Positions 29,334 to 44,823 of a stretch of DNA of 64,000 bases are shown here, in pieces (the first letter of the stretch is position 1; each line of letters starts with the position of its first letter). The stretch lies in contig NZ_JAUSBZ010000121.1 in assembly GCF_030651755.1 (NCBI RefSeq), positions 1 to 64,000 of the forward strand. Reading direction: 5' to 3'. The DNA is from Phenylobacterium sp. (GTDB lineage: Bacteria; Pseudomonadota; Alphaproteobacteria; Caulobacterales; Caulobacteraceae). A program made the translations under genes and the position numbers. The notes below the pieces were generated by a model, which worked only from the letters and a program-made list of their open reading frames with translations, searched no databases and was not told where the DNA came from.

Positions 29334-30494
29334 TCAGGCCGCCCGGGCGCCGTTGGTCCAGACGCCTCGGACCAGAGGCAGACCGCCGGCGAGCCGCACT
29401 CTCAGCAAATCGGCCCGCTGGCCGGGGGCGATTTCGCCACGGTCAGACAGGCCGACCGCCCGGGCGGGGGCGGCGGTGACCAGGGCTGCGGCCCGCGAGA
29501 GGCTCCAGCCAAAAGGCTCGCGGGTCATGGCGAAGGCGCACTCCACCAGACTGCGCGGCACATAGTCCGAGGCGAAGGCGTCCAGCAGGTCAGCCTCGGC
29601 CAACTCAGCGGCCGGGACGTTGCCGGAATAGGAACCGCCGCGGATCAGGTTGGGGCCGCCCATGACCACCACCATGCCCCGCGCCCGCGCCCGATGGGCG
29701 GCCTCGGCCGTGACCGGGAACTCAGCCACGGTCGCGCCAAGCGCCGCGGCCTCATCAATGTGCTCGAGGCTCTCATCATCGTGGCTGGCCAGGGGGATCT
29801 GACGGTCCCGCGCCATCTGCGCCACATGCCGACGGTTGTCATTGGCGTTGCGGGCCTGGCGGTCCCGCACCTGGGCCAGCCGGTCGAGGGCGGCCGCCTC
29901 GCTCATGCCGCCCGCCTGCCAGTTGGCCAGGTGCTTTTCGAGGTTGCGATACTGCCGCTGGCCCGGGGTGTGATCCATCAGCGAGAACAGCGAGGTCATC
30001 GGATGATCGGCCATCACCTCCAGGCGGCTACGCAGATCATCGGCGGTGGTCTCGCAGCGCCAGTGGATCCTGTGATCGGCCCGCAGCATGCCCTGGCCTT
30101 CCGCCGCATGCAGGCCATCGACCAGGCGTTTCAGATTGTCGGTGTTGCGCGCCGCCGATGGATTGAAGGAGCCCAGGGTCAGGGAGTTGAGCACCGTGGT
30201 CACCCCCACCGAGAGGCCACAGCCGTCATGGGTCACCGCCGCCGAGACCGGGTTCCAGTCGATATTGGGCCGGGGGAAATAGTGCTTTTCCAGGCTGTCG
30301 GTGTGCAGGTCGACGACCCCGGGCATCAGGACATCGCCCTCAAAGTCCTCCCCGACCTCGCCGCCCCCCCGGTCCACCTGGACGATGACGCCGTCGCGCA
30401 CCAGAACCGATCCGATGAAGTCATCTTCGCCCGTGACCACACGGGCGTTTCGAAACGCCAGTTCCACACTCTTCTCCTGGAAAACTTGAGACAA
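29334..30494 (-). CDS. phnM: PhnM-like alpha-D-ribose 1-methylphosphonate 5-triphosphate diphosphatase (paralogue 1)
   Basis: LMPGVVDLHTDSLEKHYFPRP, LMDHTPGQRQYRN, SHDDESLEH, ASDYVPRSLV. An alternative GTG start at 30467 with AGGAGA is plausible. Confidence 0.88.
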   Translation of the reverse strand: MSQVFQEKSVELAFRNARVVTGEDDFIGSVLVRDGVIVQVDRGGGEVGEDFEGDVLMPGVVDLHTDSLEKHYFPRPNIDWNPVSAAVTHDGCGLSVGVTTVLNSLTLGSFNPSAARNTDNLKRLVDGLHAAEGQGMLRADHRIHWRCETTADDLRSRLEVMADHPMTSLFSLMDHTPGQRQYRNLEKHLANWQAGGMSEAAALDRLAQVRDRQARNANDNRRHVAQMARDRQIPLASHDDESLEHIDEAAALGATVAEFPVTAEAAHRARARGMVVVMGGPNLIRGGSYSGNVPAAELAEADLLDAFASDYVPRSLVECAFAMTREPFGWSLSRAAALVTAAPARAVGLSDRGEIAPGQRADLLRVRLAGGLPLVRGVWTNGARAA

Positions 30495-35998: not shown

Positions 35999-37141
35999 AT
36001 GACCGAGACCCGCATCTTCTCCGACCAGGTGATCACGCCCTCAGGCCAGATCGCCGCCGAACTGATCCTCCGCGACGGCGTCATCGCCGCCGTGGAGGCC
36101 CGGGACGCCTGCCCAGCAGGCGCGCTGGACTGGACCGGCGACGTGCTGGTCGCCGGCCTGATCGACATCCACACCGACAATCTGGAAAAGCACTACCAGC
36201 CCCGCCCTGGCGCCCTGTGGGACGCCTATGGGGCGGCGCTGGCCCACGACGGCCAGTGCGTCACCGCCGGCATCACCACCGTGCTGGACTCCCTCAGCCT
36301 GCATGGGCGCAAGGATGGCCTGGACCGCAAGGACGCGCTCGGCCCCATGATCGCCGGCATGGACCAGGCGCAGACCGACGGCGCCCTGCGCGCCGACCAC
36401 CTGCTGCACCTGCGCTGCGAGGTGACCAATCCCGAACTGCTCACCCTGCTGGAGCCCCACGCCGACAATCCGCGGCTGAAGCTGCTGTCGGTCATGGACC
36501 ACACGCCGGGCCAGCGGCAGACCGCCAATGTGGAGCGCCTCCAGGCCCGCATGGTGGCGGCCGGTCGCAGCGCAGACGAGATCGAAGAGATCATGGCCCG
36601 CCGCCATGCCGGCCGCGATCCCGGTGTCGCCTATGACAACCGCCGTAAGGTGGTGGCGTTCGCCCGGGAATACGGCGTGCCGCTCGCCGCCCATGACGAC
36701 GAAACCCTGGAGCATGTGGAAGAGGCCCATGACGACGGCTGCATCATCGCGGAGTTTCCCGTCACCCTGACCGCGGCCCGCAAGGCCAAGGAACTGGGCA
36801 TGTTCGTGGCCATGGGCGCGCCGAACTTCGTGCGCGGCGGCTCGCATTCAGGCAATCTGTCGGCCCGTGAGAGCGCCCAGGCCGGCGTGCTCGACATCCT
36901 CGCCTCGGACTATGTGCCCCTCTCCATGCTGCGCTCCGCCTTCATGCTGATCGACGACCTCGGCTGGGCGCCGCAGGACGCCATGGCCACGGTCAGCGCG
37001 GCGCCGGCCCGCAGCCTAGGGCTCAAGGATCGCGGCGAGATCGTCGTCGGCCAGCGCGCCGACCTGGTTCGCGTCTCCCGCCGCAGCCAGGGCTGGCCCG
37101 TCCCGGTGGAAGTCTGGCGCCAAGGCGTCCGCGTGGCATGA
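35999..37141 (+). CDS. phnM: PhnM diphosphatase (paralogue 2)
   Basis: LVAGLIDIHTDNLEKHYQPRPGALWD; SVMDHTPGQRQ; AAHDDETLEHVEEA. Confidence 0.95.
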   Translation: MTETRIFSDQVITPSGQIAAELILRDGVIAAVEARDACPAGALDWTGDVLVAGLIDIHTDNLEKHYQPRPGALWDAYGAALAHDGQCVTAGITTVLDSLSLHGRKDGLDRKDALGPMIAGMDQAQTDGALRADHLLHLRCEVTNPELLTLLEPHADNPRLKLLSVMDHTPGQRQTANVERLQARMVAAGRSADEIEEIMARRHAGRDPGVAYDNRRKVVAFAREYGVPLAAHDDETLEHVEEAHDDGCIIAEFPVTLTAARKAKELGMFVAMGAPNFVRGGSHSGNLSARESAQAGVLDILASDYVPLSMLRSAFMLIDDLGWAPQDAMATVSAAPARSLGLKDRGEIVVGQRADLVRVSRRSQGWPVPVEVWRQGVRVA

Positions 37142-37842
37142 GCCCCCGCTACGCCGTCTATTACGCGCCTGATCCGCAAGGGGACCTCTGGGACCTGGCC
37201 TGCGCCTGGCTCGGCCGCGATCCGCATCGCAAGGTGGATTGCGTCCGGCCGGCCACGCCGGCGCTCGCCGACCTCGACCTGGACGCCTTGACCGCCAGTC
37301 CTCGGGGCTATGGCTTCCACGCGACGCTGAAGGCGCCGTTCGAACTGGCGGACGGGGCCAGCGAGCGGGACCTGCTGGATTTCGCCGAAGGCTTCGCCAG
37401 CCAGTGGACCGCCTTCGAGGCCTTGATTTCCCCCCAGGCGCTGGGCCGCTTCCTGGCCTTCCGGCTTAATGATCCCTGCCCGGCCATGGACGCCCTGGCC
37501 GAGGCCTGCGTTCGCGACTTCGACCCGTTCCGCGCGCCCCTGTCGGAGGCCGACATCGCCCGTCGCCGCAAGGCGAACCTGACGCCGGCCCAGGACGCCC
37601 GGATGCTGGAGTGGGGCTATCCCTACATCTTCGATGACTTCCGCTTCCACATGACACTGACCAGCGGAATCGCCGATGACACGGTGCGCGCCCGGGTGCT
37701 GGAGACCCTCTCGCAATTGTTCGCCTATGTGACAGGCCCACACCGCTTTGACAGCGTCGCCATCTACCGTCAGGCCGACCGCGACGCGCCGTTCGAGGTG
37801 ATGTCGCGCTTCGGCTTCGCCGTTGAGCGGGCGGCGGTCTAG
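37138..37842 (+). CDS. DUF1045-type phosphonate metabolism protein (2H phosphoesterase-like)
   Basis: RYAVYYAPDPQGDLWDLACAWLGRD; two H-x-T/S-x motifs GFHATLKAPF and FHMTLTS. Confidence 0.88.
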   Translation: MSPRYAVYYAPDPQGDLWDLACAWLGRDPHRKVDCVRPATPALADLDLDALTASPRGYGFHATLKAPFELADGASERDLLDFAEGFASQWTAFEALISPQALGRFLAFRLNDPCPAMDALAEACVRDFDPFRAPLSEADIARRRKANLTPAQDARMLEWGYPYIFDDFRFHMTLTSGIADDTVRARVLETLSQLFAYVTGPHRFDSVAIYRQADRDAPFEVMSRFGFAVERAAV

Positions 37843-38156
37843 AACTTGTCGCCGCGCATGACCTCGACGTCAGAGACAGCCGCCACCCCAGGATAATCGG
37901 CGAAGAAGTCGGCCAGACGGGTCAGGACCCGGTCGGCCACCTCGGTGGTCACCAGGGCATAGATCAGCCGCTTTTCCTGGCCCGGCGTGAAGTCGCCGCT
38001 ACGCCATTCGCCGCTGTCGCCGCTGCCCGCCAGACTGGGCAGCACGGTCCAGCCCCGCACCCCGGCCTCGGCGAGGAAGGCCTCCACCCGCCGCAGCACC
38101 GGCGCCTCAACGATGATTTCCAGCTTCTTCCGTTTCGACAGTTGCATGGATCTCAC
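37839..38156 (-). CDS. PII-like (SbtB-type) protein
   Basis: Small PII-size protein MQLSKRKKLEIIVEAPVLRRVEAFLAEAGVRGWTVLPSLAGSG; overlaps the SbtA-like permease gene by 4 nt. Confidence 0.7.
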   Translation of the reverse strand: MRSMQLSKRKKLEIIVEAPVLRRVEAFLAEAGVRGWTVLPSLAGSGDSGEWRSGDFTPGQEKRLIYALVTTEVADRVLTRLADFFADYPGVAAVSDVEVMRGDKF

Positions 38157-39139
38157 CCGAAGAGGGCGGCGGTCGCCGCCGTGTAGAGGGGAATGCCAAA
38201 GACCAGGTTGAACGGGAAGGTCACCGCCAGGGACAGGGTCAGATAGACGCCGGGATCAGCGTCCGGCAGGGCGATCCGCATGGCGGCCGGTACGGCGATA
38301 TAGGAGGCGCTGGCCGCCAGGATAGCCAGGACCGCCGCATTGCCCGGCGACAGTCCAAGGAGCAATGACAGGCCCAGCGACAGCACTGAGGAGGCCAGCG
38401 GCATGAGGATCGCAAAGGCGACCAGCGGCAGGGTCAGCGACCGCGCCGCGCTGAGCCGCCGGGCCGCCACCAGCCCCATGTCCAGCAGGAAGAGCACCAG
38501 CACCCCCTGGAAGACCGGGCCGACAAAGACCTCCATCTTGCTCATGCCCGCATCGCCGCTGAGCAGCCCCACCAGGAAGGCGCCGATCAGCAGGACCACC
38601 GACCCGTTCAGCGCCACCTCACGGAACAGCTCACCGCGCAGGCCCTGCCGGCCGGCCGCGCCGCCGCCCGCCAGGATCAGGGCCGAGAGAATGGCCGGGG
38701 TCTCCATCAGCGCCACGACCGCGACCATGTAGCCTCCGAAAGGCACGCCGCTGACCCGCAGGAACTCCGTGCCGGCCACGAAGGTGACGATGGACACCGA
38801 GCCATAGTGGGCCGCCGTGGCCGCCGCCGTCGTCCGGTCCAGGCGGCTGATTAGCCGCAGGACGCCGAAGGCGAGGATCGGGATGCCGAAGCTGAGGGTC
38901 AGGCCGACGCCAGCCGCCTTGAGAAAGTCCGCGCTCAGGCCCGCTCGCGCAGCCTCCACGCCGCCCTTGAAGCCAATGGACAACATCAGCACCAGGGCCA
39001 GAGTCTTGGCTGCGCCCTCCGGCACGGTCAGGTCGGACTTGAACCACCCGGCGCCGAAGCCCAGCAGGAAGAACAGGATGGCTGGCGTCAGCAGGTTGGT
39101 CAGGGCCAGTTGCAGCGACTCGACCACGGGCGGCTCCAA
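38153..39139 (-). CDS. SbtA-family (sodium-dependent bicarbonate-type) permease
   Basis: LALVLMLSIGFKGGVEAA, AAHYGSVSIVTFVAG, VVALMETPAILSALIL, SASYIAVPAAMRIALPDADPGVYLTLSLAVTFPFNLVFGIPLY. Confidence 0.85.
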   Translation of the reverse strand: MEPPVVESLQLALTNLLTPAILFFLLGFGAGWFKSDLTVPEGAAKTLALVLMLSIGFKGGVEAARAGLSADFLKAAGVGLTLSFGIPILAFGVLRLISRLDRTTAAATAAHYGSVSIVTFVAGTEFLRVSGVPFGGYMVAVVALMETPAILSALILAGGGAAGRQGLRGELFREVALNGSVVLLIGAFLVGLLSGDAGMSKMEVFVGPVFQGVLVLFLLDMGLVAARRLSAARSLTLPLVAFAILMPLASSVLSLGLSLLLGLSPGNAAVLAILAASASYIAVPAAMRIALPDADPGVYLTLSLAVTFPFNLVFGIPLYTAATAALFG

Positions 39140-39187
39140 GGGTTCAGGGACCAGCCCTCATAGCAGAACCATCAACGGGCTCCAGGC

Positions 39188-39808
39188 TCAACTGGCTCTC
39201 AGAATGGCGCTCATCATCGCCATGACGCCGGCCTCGCGGGAGCTGTCATTGCGCAGCACGATCACATCATCGCCGGCGATACTGTAGGCCCGGGCGCGGG
39301 CGATGCGGTCGGCGATCTCGGCCTCCGTCTCCCGGCCGCGGCGACGCAGGCGTTCGGCGAGTTGTTCGGGATCGGCGGTGACCGAGACGACGCGAACCCC
39401 GCCAAAACGCCGTCGGGCCTCGTCGATCACGCCGCGGGATACATTGGCGACAACCCGGCGGCCCAGGGCCAGATCCTGCAGGATGTCCACCGGCACGCCG
39501 TAGGAAAGGCCGTGGGCCCGCCAGAACAGCGCATAGTCGCCGGCCGCCTCGCGACGCTGGAAGTCAGCCTCGCTGACCGGCTGGTGGTCTTCGCCCCCGG
39601 CCTCGGCCGGGCGGGTAATGTCGCGGCGGACGAAGACGACGGCGGGATTGTCGGCCAGGGCCGCCCGGGCCCCGTCGATCAGGGTGTCCTTGCCGACCCC
39701 TGAAGGGCCGACCACCAGCACCAGCAGGCCGGCCTCAGGCGTACTTTTCGACGAAGGCCTCAGCGTCGAGGGCGCGGAAGTCGTCGAGGGCGTCAGCGAG
39801 GCGTTCAT
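39188..39808 (-). CDS. phnN: Ribose 1,5-bisphosphate phosphokinase PhnN
   Basis: [48 protein letters not shown]. True start uncertain; GTG at 39721 would avoid the 74-nt overlap. Confidence 0.92.
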
Positions 39809-40427
39809 GATCCCAGTCCCACCAAGCGATCGCGAGAAGGCCGTCCTGCACCGCCTTGGGGAAGCGCTCACGGATCGGCTTGGACGGCACCCCGCCCACA
39901 ATCGTGAACGGGGCCACATCCTTGGACACCACCGCGCCGGCCCCGACAACCGCGCCGGTGCCCACGGTGACGCCGGGCAGCACGGTCACCCCGTGGCCCA
40001 GCCACACGTCATGGCCCAGGGTCACGGTATGGGACCGCCGCCACTCAAAGAAGTCCTGGTCGTCCTCGTCCCCAAGCTCATAGGAGATGGCCCGATAGCT
40101 GAAGTGATGCTGGGCCGCCTTCCAGGTCGGGTGGTTGCCCGGATTGATCCGCACGTCCCGGGCGATGGAGCAGAACTTGCCGATCTCGGCATAGGCTGCG
40201 CTGGAGTCGTTCACGATATAGCTGAACGTCCCCATGGCGGTTTCCGACAGGCTGGTGCGCGCGCCCACCCGGCACCAAGGGCCAAGGATGCTGTCATGCA
40301 CCTGGGCCTGGGCGCTGATGGCGGGTTCAGGCCCCCCCGTCTTCTCGGCGGGTTCGGCCGGCGGCGTGAAACGCTCAAAATAGCGATAGCCCGGCGACAG
40401 GGGCCGGTCGGCGAGTCTCAGACCCAT
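39735..40427 (-). CDS. Hexapeptide-repeat acyltransferase of phosphonate clusters (DapH/CAT-like family)
   Basis: Hexapeptide repeats; [72 protein letters not shown]. Confidence 0.9.
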
Positions 40428-41209
40428 CAGGCGGCGGCCACGGCCTGGGTGGCGAAGGCCCGCCCGGCGCGGCCGGTGCGCACGCCATAGATCCTGTCGA
40501 CCACATCTGGCGTCAGGCCCGAAGGGGCGCCGTCATAGATGATCTTGCCCTTAGACATGCCGATAATGCGCGTGCAATAGCGCCGGGCGATGTCCAGGCT
40601 GTGAAGGTTGACGATGACGGGGATGCCCCGCTCACGGCACACATCCTCGAGCGCCTCCATCACCACCTCGGTGTTGATGGGATCGAGAGAAGCCACTGGC
40701 TCATCGGCCAGCAGCATGTCCGGCTCCTGCAGCATGGCCCGGGCGATGGCCACCCGCTGTTGTTGTCCGCCAGACAGGGTCGCGGCCCTCTGCAGCGCCG
40801 CCTGGGCCATGTCCAGACGGTCGAGCTCCAGGATGGCGCGGGCGCGGTCCTCCGCGGGGAAGATCTTGAGCAGAGACGTGGCCGTCGGTCGTTCGGCCAG
40901 GACGCCCACCAGTACATTGGTGATCACATCCAGGCGCGGACAGAGATTGAACTGCTGGAAAATCATCGCGCAGCGGCGGCGCCAGCGGCGCAGCGGCTTG
41001 CCCCTCAGCCTGCCCACATCCTCGCCGTCCCAGAGGATCTGCCCCGAGGTGGGCTCAGCCAGACGGTTTATCATGCGCAACAGGGTCGATTTGCCGGCGC
41101 CCGAGCGCCCGATCACCCCGATGAACTCGCCGCGGTCGCATCTGAAGGACACGCCGTCGACGGCGCTGACCTCCCCGAACCGCTTGGTCACGTTGCGCAG
41201 CTCCAGCAT
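40427..41209 (-). CDS. phnC: Phosphonate ABC transporter ATPase PhnC
   Basis: Start ATG at 41209 after [52 protein letters not shown]. Confidence 0.94.
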
Positions 41210-41391
41210 CCTGCCTCCAGGGTTCGGCGGTAAGCTCTTGATCCCTTGCCGTTTAGCCCGCCCCAGTGACCTCAGCATGACGGCCTCCGAGAGCCCCGGG
41301 CGCACCAAGGGGGGATTTGTCGGCCGGACTGCGGCGAGGTGTCTCGCCCGCGTCACCGGCCAAGCCTAAGGAGGACGGCGGAGGCGACCCC

Positions 41392-42264
41392 ATGGCGGAC
41401 TTTCTGGTGATCGGCGCGCTGGCCCTGGACCGTCCGGTCTGGCTGGAGGGCAGGCTGGAACGTGGTGGTCGTATGGCGGGCCGCAGCCTGATGGGCCGGC
41501 TCGGACCGCGCCTCGGCGGCGGTGGCGCCAATGCGGGGGTCGCCCTGGCCAAGGCCGGCCATATCGCCAGGCTCGCGAGCCTGGTCTCCGCGGACGACGG
41601 CGGCGACGAGTCGATCGCCATGGCGAAAGCCGCCAGCCTCGACATCACCCTGGTGGGGCGCCGGCCAGGCGCCAGCCGGACAACCCTGATCCTCATCGAG
41701 CCTGACGGCGAGCGCCTGGTGCTTGGCCTGGATTTCGACCGGGCCCGCATCACCCTGCCGGCGCTTCCCTCGCCCTCGGACCATCCAGAGGTTCAGCCAG
41801 ACGGCGTCTATGTGCGCGCCGCCTATCCAGGATCCGACGCCTGGGCGAGCCACAGCCGCGGCCCGGTGGTGGTCCACTGGCCGGCGCCGACCTATGCCGG
41901 GCCCGCCGACGTGGTGATCTGTTCGGCCGACGACCTTGATCCTGGCGTCCTCGCCTCGCCGTTCGAGGCCGCGAGGGCAGTCTTTGGGCCGCGCCTCTCG
42001 GCCATTGTCGTCACCCACGGGGCTGGCGGAGCGAGCGCCTACAGCATGAGCGCGCCGATCATCGTGCGCCCACCCCCTGCAATGGTCATAGACTCCACCG
42101 GCGCGGGCGACGTGTTCGCCGCCGGCCTGCTGGAGGCCCTCACGGCCGGCGCCGGCATGGAGGCGGCGCTCCAGCACGCCTGCGCCTGGGGCGCCGTCAC
42201 GGTCGGGTTGGCCAGTTCGGCGCCCGTGGACGCCGGCCCTGGCGCCTACCGACCCTTCGCCTAG
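41392..42264 (+). CDS. PfkB-family carbohydrate kinase
   Basis: GGGGANAGVALAKAG; C-terminal PfkB signature DSTGAGDVFAAGLLEAL. ATG at 41392 after GGAGGCG. Confidence 0.85.
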   Translation: MADFLVIGALALDRPVWLEGRLERGGRMAGRSLMGRLGPRLGGGGANAGVALAKAGHIARLASLVSADDGGDESIAMAKAASLDITLVGRRPGASRTTLILIEPDGERLVLGLDFDRARITLPALPSPSDHPEVQPDGVYVRAAYPGSDAWASHSRGPVVVHWPAPTYAGPADVVICSADDLDPGVLASPFEAARAVFGPRLSAIVVTHGAGGASAYSMSAPIIVRPPPAMVIDSTGAGDVFAAGLLEALTAGAGMEAALQHACAWGAVTVGLASSAPVDAGPGAYRPFA

Positions 42265-43082: not shown

Positions 43083-43969
43083 CAGGCCTTCTCCAGACCA
43101 ATGAGGCGATGACGCACCGCTTCTGAGAACAGGTCGATCAGGAAGATCATGGCGATGATGATCATCAGGATCGCCAGATAGGTGTCGAACTCGGTGTAGG
43201 TGATGGCCCGTTGCAGCTCGAGGCCGATGCCCCCTGCCCCAACGATGCCGAGGGCTGCGGCGCCGGCCAGATTCCCCTCCAGCCGAATGAGGGCGTAGGA
43301 GGCGTAGTTGGGCAGAACCTGGGGCATGACCCCATAGCGGATCTTCTTCAAGGATCCGGCGCCGGCGGCCTGCAGGGCCTCCATCTGGCGGGGATCGATC
43401 TCCTCGTTGATCTCGGCGAACAGCTTGCCGAGGCTCCCCATGGTCGAGATGGTCAGGGTCAGCACGCCAGCCAGAGGGCCAACCCCGAAGGCCGCCACCA
43501 GGATCAGGGCCATGATCAGGTCCGGCAGGGTGCGGATCGCCTCGAGGATGCGACGCACCACAAAACGCACAGGCGCGAAGGGCATCAGATTCTGGGCGGT
43601 GAGGAAGGACGCGCCAAGCGCCAGAAACGAGCCCATTGCTGTGGCGAGTATCGCCATCTCGACAGTCTGCCAGGCCGCCCGCAGCCAGATCGGCAGAGCG
43701 TAGAACCAGGAATGCAGCGAGCCGCGGGTCTGACGATCCTCCAGCAGGAGATCGGCCTGCAGGCCAGGATTCATCCGCTGCAGGAAGTCGGCCATGCGTC
43801 CCAGGGGATCACCACCGATTTCAGACCCGAAGAACTGGCTGCGCTGGAATGAGACCAGGAGCAGCACCGAGAAAATCGCCAGGCCGACGGCGGCCTGGGT
43901 CCGCTGGCGGATCAGCAGACGTCGACGCTCCCGCTCAAAGGCCTCGACGGCCGGATGCTGGATGCTCAT
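43082..43969 (-). CDS. phnE: Phosphonate ABC transporter permease PhnE (1st copy)
   Basis: MEALQAAGAGSLKKIRYGVMPQVLPNYASYALIRLEGN; GAGGIGLELQRAITYTEFD. Confidence 0.93.
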   Translation of the reverse strand: MSIQHPAVEAFERERRRLLIRQRTQAAVGLAIFSVLLLVSFQRSQFFGSEIGGDPLGRMADFLQRMNPGLQADLLLEDRQTRGSLHSWFYALPIWLRAAWQTVEMAILATAMGSFLALGASFLTAQNLMPFAPVRFVVRRILEAIRTLPDLIMALILVAAFGVGPLAGVLTLTISTMGSLGKLFAEINEEIDPRQMEALQAAGAGSLKKIRYGVMPQVLPNYASYALIRLEGNLAGAAALGIVGAGGIGLELQRAITYTEFDTYLAILMIIIAMIFLIDLFSEAVRHRLIGLEKA

Positions 43970-44823
43970 GACCCGACCGTGGGTCCCTGGTGCAGCAGGG
44001 CCTGAGCCTCGGTAGGCTCGAACTCTTCGCCCCCTGCCCTCCCCACGGCCCAGGCGAAGGCCTCCGGCGCCTCGTTATGCAGCGCCACATGGATGCCGAT
44101 CAGTCGAAAGCGACGGTCATCGCTTATATCGGTTCGCACCGACCACGCCTGGTCGGCCACCGGCCGTTGGCGCCAGATGACCCGCAGGTCCTGGCAACGA
44201 TCTTCGCCCGGGTGGTCGCCGCGGCAGAGCTTCTGCCAGGCGCCCGCATGCAGCACCATGGCCTGAGCCTCGCCGGCGCGCAGGCGGACGGCGGCCTCGT
44301 CATAGTCGCGGGCGACGGTCTGCGGACCAAAGAAGGCCTCGTCGGCGCCGTAGTCGGACAGGGCCCGACGAGGGACGTCCAGGCTGGCCTTCAGGGGGCC
44401 GCCGAAGACGAGGCTCGCCCCGGCCATATCCGGCAGGGTCCGGAACGGCGCCCCTTGGGCCGCAGCCACCACCACGGGGATTCGGTTCAGCGCCCCGGCC
44501 GCCCGAACAGTCAGCACATTGCGTGTCTTGCCGGCCACCGGCGCAAAGGCCGCGCCATCAAGCCTGGCCAGATCAATCTCCCCCGCCGCCAGGGCCACGG
44601 CTGCGGTCGCGGCGTCGGCCATCGGACAGTTCAGGACATCGGTCTGGAGCCGCTCAGCCAGCAGATCGAAATAGGCCTTCTGACCGGCGGGCGCGCTGGG
44701 CGGCAGAGGCCCGCAGGGCCCGGCCTCCCCGGTGATGTCGGCGACCCGCAGGGGTAGAACCGGCGTCTGAGCCTGGGCGGCGCTCAACAGGACCGCGCCA
44801 GCGGCCAAGGCGATGCGTCTCAT
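43966..44823 (-). CDS. Divergent PhnD-like periplasmic binding protein
   Basis: Signal peptide; LAAGEIDLARLDGAAFAPVAG; WSVRTDISDDRRFRLIGIH; operonic with phnD and phnE. Confidence 0.78.
   Translation of the reverse strand: MRRIALAAGAVLLSAAQAQTPVLPLRVADITGEAGPCGPLPPSAPAGQKAYFDLLAERLQTDVLNCPMADAATAAVALAAGEIDLARLDGAAFAPVAGKTRNVLTVRAAGALNRIPVVVAAAQGAPFRTLPDMAGASLVFGGPLKASLDVPRRALSDYGADEAFFGPQTVARDYDEAAVRLRAGEAQAMVLHAGAWQKLCRGDHPGEDRCQDLRVIWRQRPVADQAWSVRTDISDDRRFRLIGIHVALHNEAPEAFAWAVGRAGGEEFEPTEAQALLHQGPTVGS

Follow-up and report, generated by a model that had tools for sequence, protein, structure and literature searches.

In a stretch of 64,000 nucleotides of Phenylobacterium sp. DNA, hereafter the window, a gene pair encoding an SbtA-family permease and a PII-like regulator was found at the junction of two phosphonate (phn) operons. 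This pair is most probably an ordinary proteobacterial inorganic-carbon uptake system that was relocated once into the end of a phn operon and has since been kept under strong selection. The reading draws on the family and fold of both proteins, the single origin of the insertion, the empty junction in relatives, the conservation of both genes and the carbon-metabolism neighbours found in other lineages. The likeliest role of the pair would be to provide a heterotroph with bicarbonate for carboxylation reactions, both anaplerotic and biosynthetic, rather than to transport phosphonates.

Organization of the phn junction

Two operons converge in the phn region. The plus strand carries phnGHIJKLM up to its last gene, which encodes a DUF1045/TIGR03223 phosphonate-operon protein (37138..37842; PF06299, 2.7e-50; TIGR03223, 1e-73, slightly below cut-off). 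On the minus strand, genes for two PhnD-like binding proteins and two phnE genes precede phnC (40427..41209; TIGR02315, 9.5e-95), a phosphonate-associated hexapeptide transferase gene (39735..40427; TIGR03308, 4.1e-87) and phnN, coding for ribose 1,5-bisphosphokinase (39188..39748; TIGR02322, 4.8e-61). These three scores were above cut-off, and the equivalog-level models bore out the identifications proposed in an earlier note on this DNA. The sbtA gene (38153..39127, minus strand, 324 aa), a member of the Na+-dependent bicarbonate transporter family, and sbtB (37839..38147, minus strand, 102 aa from its ATG) occupy the junction of both operons, between phnN, immediately upstream of sbtA, and the convergent DUF1045 gene, whose stop codon overlaps that of sbtB by 4 nt. 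Both genes are real and lie, as the note had it, beside the phn genes and on the strand of phnC, the hexapeptide transferase gene and phnN.

Of the two candidate sbtA starts, the GTG at 39127 is more likely than the TTG at 39139; it is preceded by GGAG at a distance of six bases, a conserved arrangement in which one relative has ATG. The spacer from the phnN stop (39128..39187, minus strand) is then about 60 bp long and not 48 bp as previously given. The reported 4-nt overlap between sbtA and sbtB stands if sbtB starts at the alternative GTG (38156), and gives way to a 5-nt gap if it starts at the ATG (38147), from which the resulting MQL start is common to the most divergent relative.

Further features of the phn locus were recorded. 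A PfkB-family kinase gene (41341-42264, plus strand) is interposed between phnC and phnE2, in the opposite orientation; some other phn loci of Phenylobacterium have it as well, and it evolves fairly fast (dN/dS 0.20). The second PhnD-like binding protein (43966-44823, minus strand), encoded directly after phnD, is far less conserved than PhnD itself (dN/dS 0.21 versus 0.09). Two phnM genes (29334-30494, minus strand, and 35999-37141, plus strand) flank the phn core, one adjoining a GntR/UTRA (PhnF-type) regulator gene and the other lying within the operon. The DUF1045/TIGR03223 protein has relatives in the 2H phosphodiesterase-like 2_5_RNA_ligase2 family; encoded at the end of the phn operon, it may stand in for PhnP.

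Family, fold and known relatives

Profile, fold and gene pairing all supported the identification of the two proteins as SbtA and SbtB. The permease matched Pfam Sbt_1 (PF05982; TC 2.A.83; 7.7e-107) over profile positions 1-306 of 308 and its partner matched Pfam P-II (2.4e-13), so that the identity and pairing first read from the sequence proved correct. The AlphaFold model of SbtA (pLDDT 91) predicts a helical-bundle fold with inverted repeats, as in solved SbtA. Its best PDB match was SbtA 8zor (E 4.7e-14) and its top five matches were all Synechocystis SbtA structures (8zor, 7egl, 7cyf, 7egk and 7cye), bile-acid-symporter-type folds coming after. For SbtB (pLDDT 91), the model predicts a ferredoxin-like PII fold, the best match being CPII 5d4o (9.1e-10; also 5d4p), followed by cyanobacterial SbtB. 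Sequence comparison with solved structures yielded Slr1512 alone for SbtA (2e-18) and, for SbtB, CPII, a Thermus PII-like protein and SbtB.

The SbtA-SbtB system of Synechocystis PCC 6803 (Slr1512/Slr1513; 7cyf, 7egk, 8zor) has the same folds and adjacent genes for transporter and PII-like protein. The window's SbtA, about 23% identical to it in the structural alignment, keeps the Na+-site backbone region as well as S114, S322 and S324, but Y140 and S327 are replaced; its SbtB lacks the C-terminal CGPxGC loop, and neither carboxysome nor RuBisCO accompanies the pair. Alphaproteobacterial sbtA-sbtB(-beta-carbonic anhydrase) loci (L119, L134, L130) share with the window the gene order, the pocket motif SASYIAVPAAM and the SbtB C-terminus R-x-E/D-K/R-F, but the window's pair has no adjacent carbonic anhydrase gene and ends a phn operon. 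CPII from Thiomonas intermedia K12 (5d4o/5d4p) is structurally closest to the SbtB model, at 33% identity; its PDB titles name ADP, AMP and bicarbonate as ligands in the solved structures, and the entries give no gene context. Binding of these ligands by the window's SbtB is putative.

The earlier note had singled out the absence of the cyanobacterial C-terminal Cys pair. This CGPxGC redox loop is indeed absent, but its absence is no distinguishing feature: the Cys pair was found in 0 of 94 related SbtBs, which end in R-x-E/D-R/K/H-F, and in SbtB homologues at large the motif occurs in some only (PMC8352866). As judged from these alignments, absence of the Cys pair is the lineage norm and the motif is not a defining feature of SbtB.

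The bicarbonate pocket of SbtA

Docking places bicarbonate in contact with S114, Y140, S324 and S327 of Slr1512, Na+ is bound via backbone oxygens of F110, G111, A112, A320 and S322, and alanine changes at Y140 and S327 lower the activity of the protein (PMC8352866). The window's SbtA retains S114 and S324, with Y140 replaced by V and S327 by A, as throughout its lineage. Among 68 SbtAs compared, phn-embedded or not, G111, S114, S322 and S324 were retained in all, a smaller residue took the place of Y140, and A or V that of S327; a RuBisCO-linked SbtA from Cereibacter displayed the same pattern. In this comparison, no pocket residue sets the phn-embedded clade apart. A pocket adapted to phosphonates was considered and rejected because the whole lineage has these residues, including SbtAs encoded beside carbonic anhydrase or RuBisCO.

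Two Sbt proteins from Thiomicrospira pelophila rescue carbonic-anhydrase-less E. coli at low CO2 and support bicarbonate accumulation in that host (PMC12628692). SO_3758 from Shewanella oneidensis, an Sbt family member with the same S-A-S-Y-I-A motif, influences formate tolerance, the respect in which it was studied (PMC12093963).

Distribution of the phn-linked pair

Analysis of 101 Phenylobacterium genomes detected PhnJ in 30 and Sbt_1 in 29. The pair was located between phnN and the DUF1045 gene in nine of the 30 PhnJ-positive genomes, the remaining order of the locus being unchanged. Fourteen other PhnJ-positive congeners had an empty convergent junction, phnN facing the DUF1045 gene directly, the two either overlapping slightly or lying up to about 100 bp apart. 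The nine phn-embedded SbtAs formed one clade (support 100/99). In the PhnHIJKL tree, the carriers also grouped together, along with one further genome (G251), a fragmented assembly without Sbt_1 match whose contig ends within phnM, so that the junction is not visible.

Beyond Phenylobacterium, 137 PhnJ-positive genomes (64 Alphaproteobacteria, 20 of them with Sbt_1, and 73 further class and phylum members, 15 with Sbt_1) were surveyed and none had Sbt_1 near phnJ, although 35 have it elsewhere; where both were on the same contig, the nearest were more than 50 kb apart. At one locus (L126), phnE-like genes were found about 6 kb from sbtA, with unrelated genes between and without phnGHIJ. A plasmid collection searched for a phn-linked donor yielded only 14 distant SbtA matches, none above 60% identity, and no paper on such a pair was found in the literature on SbtA and phosphonate, judged by titles and abstracts. 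Co-occurrence with phnGHIJKLM was not conserved across the lineages surveyed. The neighbourhood conservation to which the earlier note had looked is limited to a single Phenylobacterium clade.

The grouping of the nine carriers in one clade, the empty junction in 14 congeners and the absence of linkage from the 137 other genomes show that sbtAB was inserted a single time, in the common ancestor of one Phenylobacterium subclade. The most divergent carrier (G187) has a DUF1203 gene (L045:8584-9054, minus strand) between sbtB and the DUF1045 gene; the junction has therefore received more than one insert.

Gene neighbours of sbtA in other lineages

Elsewhere, sbtB accompanied sbtA in 15 of 15 loci from PhnJ-positive Alphaproteobacteria of other families, and it followed sbtA in most of 80 named loci. 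Among Caulobacteraceae outside the phn clade, it was beside sbtA in four of 44 loci only, the other 40 being without it (e.g. L037, L038, L032). A same-strand beta-carbonic anhydrase gene neighboured sbtA in 23 of 76 named relatives, mostly right after sbtB. The Pfam Pro_CA assignment was confirmed for five of these neighbours, one of them beside a Caulobacteraceae SbtA without SbtB. On a Cereibacter plasmid, an SbtA homologue gene adjoins the form I RuBisCO genes cbbLS. By analogy, such neighbours speak for inorganic carbon as the substrate of SbtA. A divergent gene of LysR type, as named from its sequence, recurred in 12 of the 76 loci. The order sbtA-sbtB-beta-carbonic anhydrase is itself recurrent in Alphaproteobacteria (L119, L130, L134 and 20 other named loci), in a set drawn regardless of carbon-fixing lifestyle.

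Selection, transcription and genome background

Both genes are under strong purifying selection. Median pairwise dN/dS among eight phn-embedded loci was 0.064 for sbtA and 0.075 for sbtB, similar to phnC and phnE1 and far below 1, and the two frames were intact in all nine carrier genomes. The low ratios and intact frames indicate that the pair is functional, even if its function is unrelated to phosphonates.

A scan for sigma-70-type promoters and simple intrinsic terminators detected no promoter-like or terminator-like site in the phnN-sbtA spacer, which makes read-through from the phnC operon the simplest reading. Judging from the spacing, sbtA and sbtB are probably read as the tail of the phnC-thr-phnN operon, of which phnC would be the first gene. 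Pho-box-like patterns occurred in the window at chance level.

The genome from which the window was taken has a single Sbt_1, with no second copy, and two beta-carbonic anhydrase genes, neither of them adjacent to sbtAB. At least one such gene was present in 98 of 101 congeners. A role of SbtA as a substitute for an absent carbonic anhydrase was rejected on these grounds. The earlier observation that RuBisCO is missing from the window extends to the whole genome and to 14 congeners.

Possible roles of the pair

We favour a mechanism of inorganic-carbon uptake in which SbtA would act as a trimeric elevator symporter with 10 helices, for Na+/HCO3- or a similar small anion, and SbtB as a PII-fold trimer that would bind adenyl nucleotides and hold SbtA shut with its T-loop. 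The two genes were set once at the convergent phnN/DUF1045 junction in the subclade ancestor, and are probably transcribed with the phnC-thr-phnN genes. Some observations weigh against this reading: two of the four residues that contact docked bicarbonate in Synechocystis SbtA are replaced, and precisely those at which alanine lowers activity; the Shewanella relative is connected with formate; no carbonic anhydrase gene adjoins the pair; and the clade has retained sbtAB in its phn operon while diverging clearly, possibly a sign of functional coupling.

Such coupling could be regulatory. A bicarbonate-moving sbtAB would in that case have been placed adaptively under phosphate-starvation or phosphonate control, for instance to provide HCO3- for the carboxylations of nucleotide synthesis when the pathway delivers PRPP. 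The common strand, the 60-bp spacer with no recognisable terminator after phnN, the maintenance of sbtAB in nine genomes at low dN/dS and the lack of any other Sbt_1 in the genome are consistent with this proposal, and it is possible, from position, that HCO3- supply is coupled to phosphonate use via shared transcription. However, the linkage is absent from every other lineage examined with both systems, no Pho-box-like site exceeds chance in the window, and the unrelated DUF1203 gene at the same junction in the most divergent member makes it look like a tolerant insertion site. Adaptive control of this kind is unlikely on the whole. That SbtA carries a compound of the phosphonate pathway (a carboxylated phosphonate, formate, phosphite or another by-product anion), with SbtB as the gate, is very improbable. 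Genomic position, the two altered pocket residues and the formate phenotype of the relative with the same motif can be cited in its favour, but all SbtAs examined in the lineage have identical replacements, those encoded beside carbonic anhydrase or RuBisCO among them, Sbt_1 is found away from phn in 44 non-phn Caulobacteraceae loci and in 35 PhnJ-positive genomes outside the genus, and a phnCDE-type transporter with two binding proteins is already encoded at the locus. The earlier note's proposal of a phosphonate-pathway substrate for the pair is thus not upheld, the linkage being confined to one clade and the pocket being that of SbtAs linked to carbonic anhydrase or RuBisCO. The single insertion at a convergent gene end and the DUF1203 gene at the same place in one relative might instead suggest a passive passenger, non-functional or unlinked to its surroundings in any way and riding at a tolerant junction; this is hardly credible in view of dN/dS values as low as those of phnC and phnE1 and of frames intact in every carrier.

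Implications

A pair for inorganic-carbon uptake whose best-known setting is the carbon-concentrating mechanism is here conserved in heterotrophs without RuBisCO, and in one case was captured by a phosphorus-scavenging operon. The survey also calls for caution in reading a substrate off one genomic neighbourhood, since the wider set of loci points to carbon metabolism. Shared transcription, if real, would link the uptake of carbon anions with phosphorus starvation. It is quite unlikely, though conceivable, that in this one Phenylobacterium clade a PII-gated symporter of bicarbonate or another small anion now functions within the phosphonate regulon, in which case phosphorus starvation would induce nucleotide-sensed anion uptake along with C-P lyase.
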